Shown: piece by piece, positions 4,002 to 33,076 of the stretch
Layout of the letters: each line of letters begins with the position of its first letter
Numbering within the stretch: position 1 is the first letter of the stretch
Source: Alistipes sp.
GTDB taxonomy: Bacteria; Bacteroidota; Bacteroidia; Bacteroidales; Rikenellaceae
NCBI GenBank assembly: GCA_017555105.1
Contig: JAFZHB010000021.1
Location: 88,929 to 152,928 of the forward strand
Direction: 5' to 3'
Length of the DNA stretch: 64,000 nucleotides
Made by a program: the position numbers and the translations under genes
The notes under the pieces: model-generated
The model's database searches: none
The model's input: only the letters and a program-made list of their open reading frames with translations
What the model was told of the DNA's origin: nothing

Positions 4002-4007
4002 CTTTAG

Positions 4008-4080
4008 TAGCGGGGGGAGGACTCGAACCTCCGGCCTCCGGGTTATGAGCCCGACGAGCTACCAACTGCTCTACCCCGCG
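4008..4080 (-). tRNA. initiator tRNA-fMet (CAU)
   Basis: Minus-strand cloverleaf of 73 bases starting CGCGGGG, D-arm GAGC/GCTC, anticodon loop CTCATAA closed by three G-C pairs (GGG...CCC), which is the initiator signature, and T-arm GGAGGTTCGAGTCCTCC. Position 1 (C) faces U72, so the first pair of the acceptor is unpaired as required for initiators, although the classical mismatch is C1-A72. CCA is not encoded. Confidence 0.93.
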
Positions 4081-28670: not shown

Positions 28671-29090
28671 CTTAATTCTAATATGACACATAATAATGCT
28701 CCATATGTAACAATAATCTCAATATCCCCAACTGATTCCCAATATCCCATCGATATCCAAGTTTAATAATTTAACATGGTAATTCTCTGGGACTTTTGTG
28801 AAATACCAAGCTACGCATGCAAATTCACAAAACACCCCAACTTATTGGCAGCCAATCTCTGGGATTTTATTTTGTTACACATCTGATATTTTAACTAATT
28901 TTTTTCTATCTTTGTGGCTTATTGGAGTTTTATACACTTGTAAGGGGTGCAAAGCGAGCATTTGCCGCAGCGGCACATAAGCCCCTGCCTAAGGCGGGGG
29001 GGGGTGGGTAAAATTTGCAAATGACGCCGAAGACGGCAAGTGCGCCCGTTGAAAGCGTGATAAGTAGAGCGTAACAAAATAACTATACAG
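28671..29090 (+). other. AT-rich spacer and structured leader of ileS
   Basis: No gene seen. 28671-28900 is AT-rich with short direct repeats (AATATCCC twice; CTCTGGGA at ~28789 and ~28857). A -7 box TATCTTTG at 28907-28914 implies a ~170-base ileS leader that is suddenly GC-rich. In it, TGCCG/CGGCA (28963-28967, 28971-28975), a hairpin CCCCTGCC/GGCGGGGG (28982-29000) and GCCG-AAGA-CGGC (29026-29037) can form; AGGGG at 28943-28947 could instead pair with CCCCT at 28982-28986. A run of nine G is at 28996-29004. Confidence 0.5.
28907..28914 (+). promoter_or_regulatory. -7 element TATCTTTG of ileS
   Basis: Matches TAnnTTTG; no -33 element at the right distance. Confidence 0.5.
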
Positions 29091-32000
29091 ATGAAATTCA
29101 AGGAGTACAAAGGTCTTGACCTTGCAAACATTGCAGACGAGGTGCTGGCTCGTTGGGACAGCGACCAAACCTTCGAGAAGAGCCTCACGACGCGTGAGGG
29201 ACACCCTTCGTTTGTCTTTTATGAGGGTCCTCCCTCGGCAAACGGTATGCCGGGTATTCACCATGTGATGGCGCGTACGATCAAAGATGTCTTCTGCCGC
29301 TATAAGACGCAGCAGGGCTATCAGGTGCACCGCAAGGCGGGTTGGGATACGCACGGTCTGCCCGTAGAGCTGGGTGTGGAGAAGAAGCTCGGTATCACGA
29401 AGGAGGATATCGGCAAGAAGATTACGATCGAGGAGTACAGCCACGCCTGCCGCGAGGCGGTGATGGAGTTCACGGGCGTGTGGGAGGATCTCACGCGCAA
29501 GATGGGCTACTGGGTCAATATGCAGGATCCCTACATCACCTACGACAACAAGTACATCGAGACCCTCTGGTGGATGCTCAAGCAGCTCTACGAGAAGGGA
29601 CTCCTCTATAAGGGTTACACGATTCAGCCCTACTCGCCGGCTGCCGGTACGGGTCTCTCGACCCACGAGCTGAACCAGCCGGGTTGCTACCGCGATGTGA
29701 AGGACACGACGATGGTGGCGCAGTTCAAGATGGTTGATCCGAAGCCCGAGATGGCCGAGTGGGGTACGCCCTACTTCATCGCGTGGACGACGACCCCCTG
29801 GACGCTCCCCTCGAATACGGCGCTCTGTGTGGGCCCGAAGATCGACTATGTGGCCGTGCAGAGCTACAACGCCTATTCGGGTGAGAAGATCACGGTCGTA
29901 CTGGCCAAGCCGCTGCTCTATACCCACTTCAACAAGAAGGCCGAGGGTATCGCCCTCGAGGAGTATAAGGTGGGCGATAAGCTCGTGCCGTTCCGTGTCG
30001 TGGGCGAGTACAAGGGTTCGGACCTCGTCGGTATGCACTACGAGCAGCTCATCCCTTGGGTGAAGCCCGTGGAGATGGTCGGCGACAAGCAGTGGCAGGT
30101 AGCCTCGGAGAAGGCTTTCCGTGTGATTGCCGGCGACTATGTGACGACCGAGGATGGTACGGGTATCGTACACATCGCTCCGACCTTTGGTGCTGATGAC
30201 GCCTTTGTGGCACGCGCCGCAGGTATCCCGGCCCTCTACATGATCAACAAGCGTGGCGAGACCCGCCCGATGGTCGATCTGCAGGGTAAGTTCTACCTTA
30301 CGGAGGAGCTCGACGAGCAGTTCGTGGAGGCATGTGTGGATACGGAGCTCTACAAGGACTACGAGGGTCGCTTCGTGAAGAACGCCTACGATCCGCAGTT
30401 CACGGTCGATGGCAAGTACGATGAGCAGGCAGCCCAGGCAGCCGAGACGCTCGATGTCTACATCGCCATCCGCCTCAAGGAGCAGTTCAAAGCCTTCAAG
30501 ATTGAGAAACATACGCACAACTATCCCCACTGCTGGCGTACGGATAAGCCCGTCTTGTACTATCCGCTCGATTCGTGGTTCATCCGTTCTACGGCGCTCA
30601 AGGAGCGTATGATGGAGCTCAACAAGACCATCAAGTGGAAGCCCGAGTCGACCGGTACGGGTCGCTTCGGCAAGTGGTTGGAGAACCTGAACGACTGGAA
30701 CCTCTCGCGTTCGCGCTTCTGGGGTACGCCGCTGCCGATCTGGGCAACGGAGGATCGTTCGGAGATGCGTTGCATCGGTTCGGTGGAGGAGTTGATGGCC
30801 GAGATCGAGAAGTCGATCGCTGCCGGCCTGATGACGGAGAACCCCTACAAGAACTTCGTTGTAGGCGATATGTCGAAGGAGAACTACTCGATCGAGCGCA
30901 TCGATCTGCACCGTCCCTATGTGGATCAGATTGTACTCTGCTCGTCGAAGGGCGAACCGATGCACCGCGAGGCTGACCTGATCGATGTATGGTTCGATTC
31001 GGGTGCTATGCCCTATGCGCAGGCTCACTATCCCTTCGAAAACAAGGAGGGCTTCACGGAGCGTTATCCGGCTGACTTCGTGGCCGAGGGTGTCGATCAG
31101 ACGCGCGGTTGGTTCTTTACGCTCCACGCGCTGGCTACGATGCTCTTCGACTCGGTGGCCTTCAAGAACATCATCTCGAATGGTCTAGTGCTCGACAAGA
31201 ACGGCAACAAGATGTCGAAGCGTCTGGGCAATGCCGTCGATCCGTTCGATGTGTTGAAGAGCTACGGTGCCGATGCTACGCGTTGGTATATGATTTCGAA
31301 CTCGCAGCCGTGGGACAACCTAAAGTTCGACCGCGAGGGCGTTGATGAGGTGCGTCGTAAGTTCTTCGGTACGCTCTACAACACCTACTCGTTCTTCGCC
31401 CTCTACGCCAATATCGATGGCTTCACGGGGCAGGAGGCAGAGGTGGCTATCGAGCGTTGCCCGGAGATCGACCGCTGGATCCTCTCGGAGCTCAACACGC
31501 TGACGAAGCGTGTGACGGAGTGTCTGGAGGACTACGATCCGACCCCGGCCGCGCGTGCGATCCAGGATTTCGTGGGTGAGCACCTCTCGAATTGGTATGT
31601 ACGCCTGAACCGTAAGCGTTTCTGGGGTGGTGAGATGACCGAGGATAAGCTGGCCGCTTACCAGACGCTCTACACTTGCTTGGAGACGGTAGTGATGCTG
31701 TCGGCTCCCTTTGCTCCCTTCATCTCGGATCGCATCTTCACGGATCTGAACGCTGTGAGCGGTCGCCACACGGAGAGCTCGGTACACATTGCCGACTTCC
31801 CGAAGGTGAACGAGGAGCTGATCAACGCCGATTTGGAGGCGATGATGGGCATCGCCCAGCAGCTCTCGTCGATGGTGTTGGCTCTGCGTCGTAAGGTCTC
31901 GATCAAGGTGCGTCAGCCGCTGACCAAGATCATGATTCCCGTACTCGATCCCGCCATGGCTGCCCACATCGAGGCCGTGAAGGGTCTGGTGATGAACGAG

Positions 32001-32576
32001 GTGAATGTGAAGTCGATCGAGCTGTTGCACGATACGACGGGCATCATTACGAAGCACATCAAGCTTAACTTCAAAAATTTCTGTACGCGCTACGCCAAGT
32101 ACTCGAAGCAGATGGCTGCGCTGCTCGCTTCGTTTACGCAGGAGCAGATCGCTGCCATCGAGGGCTCGGCCGAGACGCAGCTCGAGATCGATGGCGAGAC
32201 GCTGACCGTTACACCGGCCGACTTCATCATCACCTCGGAGGATATGCCGGGTTGGCTGGTGGCTTCGGAGGGTACGCTCACCGTGGCGTTGGATATCACT
32301 GTTACGGAGGAGTTGCGCCGCGAGGGTGTAGCTCGTGAGCTGGTGAACCGCATCCAGAATATCCGCAAGGAGTCGGGCTTCGAGGTGACGGATAAGATCC
32401 GTGTCGAGATCGAGCAGAAGGAGTCGGTTGAAGCCTCGGTGGAGGAGTATGCCGCCTACATTGGTCAGCAGACGCTGGCCGTTGAGGTGAAGACGGCTGC
32501 CGTTCCTGCCGGTGAGGTGGTGGTTGACTCGGAGCTCGACGAGGAGCCGCTGAAGATCGCTGTGACGCGCGTTTAG
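29091..32576 (+). CDS. ileS: Isoleucyl-tRNA synthetase, type 2-like, with GxHH in place of HxGH
   Basis: 1161 residues. Class I synthetase with CP1 editing domain, KMSKS as KMSKRLGN (in NGNKMSKRLGNAVDP), GWDTHGLPVELGVEKKLG, and a long C-terminal region. No CxxC...CxxC zinc finger occurs at the C-terminus, which with the KMSKR form and the length points to the eukaryote-like IleRS2 group, known for lower mupirocin sensitivity. The HxGH signature, expected in ANGMPHxGH, reads PGIHH (G55-I56-H57-H58, bases 29253-29264): first and third positions are exchanged relative to HIGH. ValRS in this window has a normal HMGH, so this is not a general feature of the genome. The reading frame is intact over the whole length, so the enzyme is presumably functional and the only IleRS visible here. 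Confidence 0.95.
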   Translation: MKFKEYKGLDLANIADEVLARWDSDQTFEKSLTTREGHPSFVFYEGPPSANGMPGIHHVMARTIKDVFCRYKTQQGYQVHRKAGWDTHGLPVELGVEKKLGITKEDIGKKITIEEYSHACREAVMEFTGVWEDLTRKMGYWVNMQDPYITYDNKYIETLWWMLKQLYEKGLLYKGYTIQPYSPAAGTGLSTHELNQPGCYRDVKDTTMVAQFKMVDPKPEMAEWGTPYFIAWTTTPWTLPSNTALCVGPKIDYVAVQSYNAYSGEKITVVLAKPLLYTHFNKKAEGIALEEYKVGDKLVPFRVVGEYKGSDLVGMHYEQLIPWVKPVEMVGDKQWQVASEKAFRVIAGDYVTTEDGTGIVHIAPTFGADDAFVARAAGIPALYMINKRGETRPMVDLQGKFYLTEELDEQFVEACVDTELYKDYEGRFVKNAYDPQFTVDGKYDEQAAQAAETLDVYIAIRLKEQFKAFKIEKHTHNYPHCWRTDKPVLYYPLDSWFIRSTALKERMMELNKTIKWKPESTGTGRFGKWLENLNDWNLSRSRFWGTPLPIWATEDRSEMRCIGSVEELMAEIEKSIAAGLMTENPYKNFVVGDMSKENYSIERIDLHRPYVDQIVLCSSKGEPMHREADLIDVWFDSGAMPYAQAHYPFENKEGFTERYPADFVAEGVDQTRGWFFTLHALATMLFDSVAFKNIISNGLVLDKNGNKMSKRLGNAVDPFDVLKSYGADATRWYMISNSQPWDNLKFDREGVDEVRRKFFGTLYNTYSFFALYANIDGFTGQEAEVAIERCPEIDRWILSELNTLTKRVTECLEDYDPTPAARAIQDFVGEHLSNWYVRLNRKRFWGGEMTEDKLAAYQTLYTCLETVVMLSAPFAPFISDRIFTDLNAVSGRHTESSVHIADFPKVNEELINADLEAMMGIAQQLSSMVLALRRKVSIKVRQPLTKIMIPVLDPAMAAHIEAVKGLVMNEVNVKSIELLHDTTGIITKHIKLNFKNFCTRYAKYSKQMAALLASFTQEQIAAIEGSAETQLEIDGETLTVTPADFIITSEDMPGWLVASEGTLTVALDITVTEELRREGVARELVNRIQNIRKESGFEVTDKIRVEIEQKESVEASVEEYAAYIGQQTLAVEVKTAAVPAGEVVVDSELDEEPLKIAVTRV

Positions 32577-32695: not shown

Positions 32696-33076
32696 ATGGC
32701 AGAAGAGAAGACCCGTTATAGCGACGCGGAATTGGAAGAGTTCCGAGAGCTGATCTTGAAAAAGTTGGAGAGTGCTCGTGCTGATTACGAGTTGTTGCAC
32801 GCGACCATTACCCACGCATCGGGAAACGACATAGAGGATACCTCGCCTACCTATAAAGTATTGGAGGAGGGAGCCGCTACGCTCTCCAAAGAGGAGAATG
32901 GTCGCCTGGCGATGCACCAGATGAAGTTTATCCGCAACTTGGAGTATGCCCTTATGCGCATCGAGAATAAGACCTACGGCATCTGCAAGACGACCGGTAA
33001 GCTGATTCCGAAGGAGCGCCTGATGAAGGTGCCTCACGCAACGGAGTGCATCGAGGCCAAGATGGCAAATCACTAA
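32696..33076 (+). CDS. TraR/DksA-family protein with a half-lost zinc finger
   Basis: 126 residues: an N-terminal helical hairpin (about 8-92) and a C-terminal DksA/TraR finger. The finger pattern C-x2-C-G-x2-I...R-L...P...C-x2-C is recognisable, but the second and fourth cysteines are replaced: C97-KT-T100-G...C118-IE-A121. DksA-type proteins insert their coiled coil into the RNA polymerase secondary channel and modulate transcription with ppGpp. With only two of four Cys, zinc binding is doubtful; two-Cys DksA variants exist in other bacteria. A strong terminator follows. Confidence 0.88.
   Translation: MAEEKTRYSDAELEEFRELILKKLESARADYELLHATITHASGNDIEDTSPTYKVLEEGAATLSKEENGRLAMHQMKFIRNLEYALMRIENKTYGICKTTGKLIPKERLMKVPHATECIEAKMANH

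Follow-up and report, generated by a model that had tools for sequence, protein, structure and literature searches.

A type 2 isoleucyl-tRNA synthetase of Alistipes with a swapped class I signature, and the spread of that signature in sampled Bacteroidota

The window analysed here, a stretch of 64,000 nucleotides from an Alistipes genome, carries a gene for isoleucyl-tRNA synthetase (IleRS) whose product reads GIHH at the place of the class I signature HxGH. We put at about 95% the probability that this is a housekeeping Bacteroidota IleRS2, which should charge tRNA-Ile normally and whose mupirocin Ki should fall between high micromolar and millimolar values; we infer both the catalysis and the resistance from published enzymes. 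The features on which the argument depends are as follows.

29091..32576, + strand: ileS, type 2 isoleucyl-tRNA synthetase, 1161 aa (TIGR00392, Pfam domains, solved IleRS2 as best relatives)
29235..29237, + strand: Ser49, where E. coli IleRS has Tyr59 (from the alignment with K-12 IleS)
29253..29264, + strand: class I signature GIHH at the HxGH place, aa 55-58 (sequence; aligned without gaps on PHVGH in 8c8u and in 1ile)
30144..30200, + strand: core of the editing site, TTEDGTGIVHIAPTFGADD, aa 352-370 (from the E. coli IleS alignment)
31026..31040, + strand: HYPFE, a eukaryote-like IleRS2 mark, aa 646-650 (mark as defined in the relevant part of PMC4861432)
31209..31223, + strand: KMSKR, second class I signature, aa 707-711 (sequence)

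Signature and type of the enzyme

The gene matches TIGR00392 (ileS, NCBIfam) with 1002.8 bits against a cut-off of 621.4, covering profile positions 5-852 of 861, and Pfam finds the domains tRNA-synt_1 and Anticodon_1 followed by a C-terminal DUF5915. Among solved structures the protein scores 812.8 bits to the laboratory GVHH mutant of Priestia megaterium IleRS2 (8c8w), 807.1 to the wild-type enzyme (8c8u) and 729 to 1ile, whereas the top IleRS1 chains reach just 298.4 and 297.6. By sequence the window enzyme is an IleRS2, nearer to the solved IleRS2 chains than to IleRS1.

The marks that distinguish the types (HYPFE, Tyr59, NKIL and a C-terminal Cys4 cluster) are taken from the relevant part of PMC4861432, which gives SSL at 572 as a further one. 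Tyr59, NKIL and the Cys4 cluster are all absent from the window IleRS and all present in E. coli IleS, which was aligned as a control. In E. coli the cluster consists of Cys 901/904/921/924; it is missing here because the last two cysteines of the protein are at 863 and 998. Asp370 of the window IleRS falls on E. coli Asp342 and is invariant in an alignment of 15 sequences, and we take it to be the editing residue. In S. griseus IleRS the mutant D334A is editing-deficient, as stated in the passage of PMC4861432 on that mutant.

The codons at 29253-29264 are GGT ATT CAC CAT, encoding GIHH. In phmmer comparisons with solved structures, PGIHH aligns without a gap on the PHVGH found both in 1ile and in P. 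megaterium IleRS2 (8c8u), and also on PGVHH of the mutant 8c8w; in the alignment with E. coli IleS, Gly55 lies on the first His of HIGH and His57 on its Gly. These alignments show a true exchange between the first residue of the signature and the third. The ValRS within the window (named by Pfam) has a canonical HMGH, and two loci elsewhere in the genome, which we take from sequence context to be LeuRS-like and MetRS-like, read HVGH and HIGH respectively. Among the four class I loci compared, the change is confined to IleRS.

All of this agrees with an earlier note on the same DNA, which had described an IleRS2-type enzyme with GIHH in place of HxGH, KMSKR as its KMSKS motif and no C-terminal zinc finger, had called the rest of the enzyme intact, and had held the change to be specific to IleRS. 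The codons and ungapped alignments bear out the GIHH; the bit scores, HYPFE and the missing Tyr59, NKIL and Cys4 cluster bear out the type; the family and domain matches bear out the intactness; and the signature comparison bears out the specificity.

Published counterparts and the expected response to mupirocin

Swapped-signature IleRS2 has been a known kind since 2023, and the window enzyme is an ordinary example of it. The work on GxHH variants tolerating extreme mupirocin concentrations to which the earlier note referred does exist: in its relevant parts, Brkic et al. 2023 (PMC10485003) describes type 2 enzymes in which a G/AXHH signature goes with a millimolar mupirocin Ki. With Gly in first place and His in third, and aligned on HVGH, the window GIHH belongs in this subgroup, where the first residue is either Gly or Ala and the third is His. 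The window enzyme is like these G/AXHH enzymes in being of type 2 and in having Gly first and His third, and theirs can be housekeeping enzymes; it differs in having Ser at the Tyr59 place and in its KMSKR, and it is known here from its sequence.

The natural ALHH IleRS2 of Deinococcus radiodurans has a mupirocin Ki of 6600 uM (PMC10485003, Table 1), and this falls 823-fold when the signature is made canonical. Two canonical IleRS2 enzymes, once swapped, go from a Ki of 0.20 to 35 uM and from 1.08 to 460 uM, with kcat and KM somewhat impaired, and the swapped IleRS1 of P. megaterium and of E. coli make no product, all according to the kinetic passages of PMC10485003. For S. griseus IleRS2, which reportedly has the same motif, a Ki of about 10 mM is given in the corresponding passage of PMC4861432. 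Both the D. radiodurans and the S. griseus enzymes thus share with the window enzyme a naturally swapped signature, theirs with a measured millimolar Ki; they come from other phyla, and that of D. radiodurans has Ala in first place. The closest solved relatives are P. megaterium IleRS2 (HVGH; 8c8u, 8c8v), whose natural signature is canonical whereas that of the window enzyme is swapped by nature, and its GVHH mutant 8c8w, for which the kinetic passages of PMC10485003 report a lower kcat and a higher KM.

The structural passages of the same paper (PMC10485003) offer a rationale. The tip of the alpha1 helix is shifted in IleRS2 relative to IleRS1, and because of this shift a third-place His fits without displacing the adenine and assumes the catalytic role of the first His; in a model, the third-place His clashes with bound mupirocin. 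In the window IleRS, His57 would likewise replace the missing first His in catalysis, and would clash with mupirocin. It is on account of this clash that the Ki of the window enzyme is predicted to be high micromolar to millimolar, and that the enzyme is expected to be mupirocin hyper-resistant. That an essential enzyme should carry its catalytic signature in swapped form is striking as enzyme evolution, and kinetics and crystal structures for it have already been published.

The stem Bacteroid is absent from the main text of PMC10485003, and the phylum may still be present in the tree of its source data. In titles and the starts of abstracts of the open-licence literature on IleRS2, or on mupirocin with Bacteroides or Bacteroidetes, no phylum-wide GxHH pattern was found. 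In the same literature, viewed as titles, starts of abstracts and some passages, neither a mupirocin Ki determined on an enzyme from the Bacteroidota nor a mupirocin MIC for Bacteroides or Bacteroidetes was found. Bacteroides and other anaerobes are given as mupirocin-insensitive in older MIC tables. In the relevant passage of PMC13085705, mupirocin in the medium is predicted to increase Bacteroidaceae diversity, which is only weakly consistent with insensitivity.

Spread across the Bacteroidota and persistence of the swap

What appears to be new here is the scale, GxHH holding without exception in a large sample from a single phylum. Genome sets of 41 and 198 were searched, with the own genome in both (238 in total). 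The signature was read in 121 of the 238, the own genome included, as well as in an N-terminal ileS piece at a contig end in G216, which reads GIHH (L151); the other 116 genomes lie outside the count. Of the named loci, 79 of 80 were read; these 80 are the best of at least 588 candidates, and the named sample therefore leans to close relatives. Their titles are those of Bacteroidota, for example Alistipes, Bacteroides, Prevotella, Flavobacterium, Chryseobacterium and Mucilaginibacter, and gut, root and marine sources occur among them. Left out of the count were L018 and L163, where the match starts beyond the signature; L002-L006, L128 and L129 do not encode IleRS and were also left out.

A readable signature was found at 205 loci; five of these repeat a gene that another locus already represents, and the distinct sequences number 200. 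Tabulating the signature residues, as the earlier note had proposed, gave GxHH in 200 of the 200 distinct ileS genes (the window's included) and HxGH in none, with 184 GIHH, 14 GVHH, one GMHH and one GLHH. The expression used to read the signature returned HIGH for its controls, which were E. coli IleS and a pair of IleRS2-like genes in Bacteriophage sp. records. Since it is present in every relative read, the swap is not peculiar to the source organism, and its uniformity would predict intrinsic mupirocin insensitivity throughout the phylum.

The same uniformity raises the question of whether the swap is kept by drug selection or by lock-in of the architecture. In the latter case the swap would be held by an ancient co-adaptation of the active site, and mupirocin resistance would be a by-product and not the trait selected today. 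This is quite possible, at somewhat less than even odds. No reversion is seen in any of the 200 distinct genes, gut, root and marine sources included, as lock-in would have it. However, reversion is possible, since one natural case in the Deinococcus-Thermus clade is reported in the evolutionary passages of PMC10485003, where antibiotic selection is argued, and the uniformity fits steady selection too; fitting selection and lock-in alike, it cannot separate them. The fuller proposal, that the swap became fixed no later than the root of the phylum, was never reverted in the genes read, and has left hyper-resistance as a by-product of ancient lock-in, is offered tentatively, as distinctly less than an even bet. 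If lock-in is true, the whole phylum would be hyper-resistant without any present-day selection for it.

The reading of the window IleRS as a housekeeping enzyme has a rival in which it is an extra synthetase, serving resistance only, beside a normal IleRS1. IleRS1 and IleRS2 may coexist in bacteria, according to the relevant passage of PMC10485003, which speaks for this rival. The copy number speaks against it, and makes it very improbable. A second ileS, which the earlier note had suggested looking for, was sought by the family cut-off in the own genome and 40 relatives and was not found: two are listed in none of the 41 genomes, and 36 of them have a match above the cut-off, with one such row apiece. 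In the own genome (22 contigs, 86% complete) the window gene is the sole one above the cut-off, where a fragmented second copy would score below it. The own genome holds a single ileS, with a small doubt left by its incompleteness. In G010, G016, G021, G033 and G034 there are ileS fragments or nothing above the cut-off. Applied to three genomes that lacked a strong IleRS2 match (G010, G034 and G216), the family search found nothing above it in G010 and G034, and in the latter (91% complete) a ValRS-like gene and weaker hits were all that it gave; we read the missing ileS in these two as assembly gaps, a reading that is unproven.

That the signature is a sequencing or assembly error, or belongs to a decaying gene, gains something from the incompleteness of the draft genome, but can be put aside as having a negligible chance, against an open frame of 1161 aa and the recurrence of GxHH in 199 further distinct genes. 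Codon use points the same way as regards the signature itself: over the 205 loci each of the four Gly codons and each of the two His codons occurs there, and the signature is therefore kept at the protein level. It is just as exceedingly improbable that GIHH is a chance string and the real HxGH sits in another part of the protein, an outcome that the earlier note had named as refuting its claim: a scan of all 1161 aa for H.GH, G.HH, H.HH and G.GH found no second place besides aa 55, the place that aligns on PHVGH and on E. coli HIGH.

Variation at other sites and the gene neighbourhood

Two other sites were read among these loci. At the place of Tyr59, one part of the phylum has Ser, as SANG in 58/58, 9/68 and 79/79 loci of three sets (L001-L134 and L155-L234), and another has Thr, as TANG in 43/68 loci and TVNG in 16/68. 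The KMSKS motif, in the 79 named loci among L155-L234, is KMSKR in 72, KMSKH in four and KMSKS in three.

The two Bacteriophage sp. records mentioned above, MT835484.1 (L236) and MT835536.1 (L237), are faecal and unannotated. Their IleRS2-like genes, with the canonical HIGH, cover 97% of the window protein at about 39% identity. The records are possibly bacterial contigs.

About 120 bases downstream of ileS, at 32696-33076 on the + strand, there is an open reading frame for a 126-aa protein that contains a DksA/TraR C4 zinc finger. Antisense to the first 58% of ileS runs an open frame of 712 aa (28989-31127, - strand), which is most likely a shadow of codon bias and not a gene. At the Rfam gathering threshold there is no match at ileS, and two tRNAs are found in the window. 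A tRNA at 4007-4080 on the - strand has a CAT anticodon and is called tRNA-Met, but may instead be a tRNA-Ile reading AUA.
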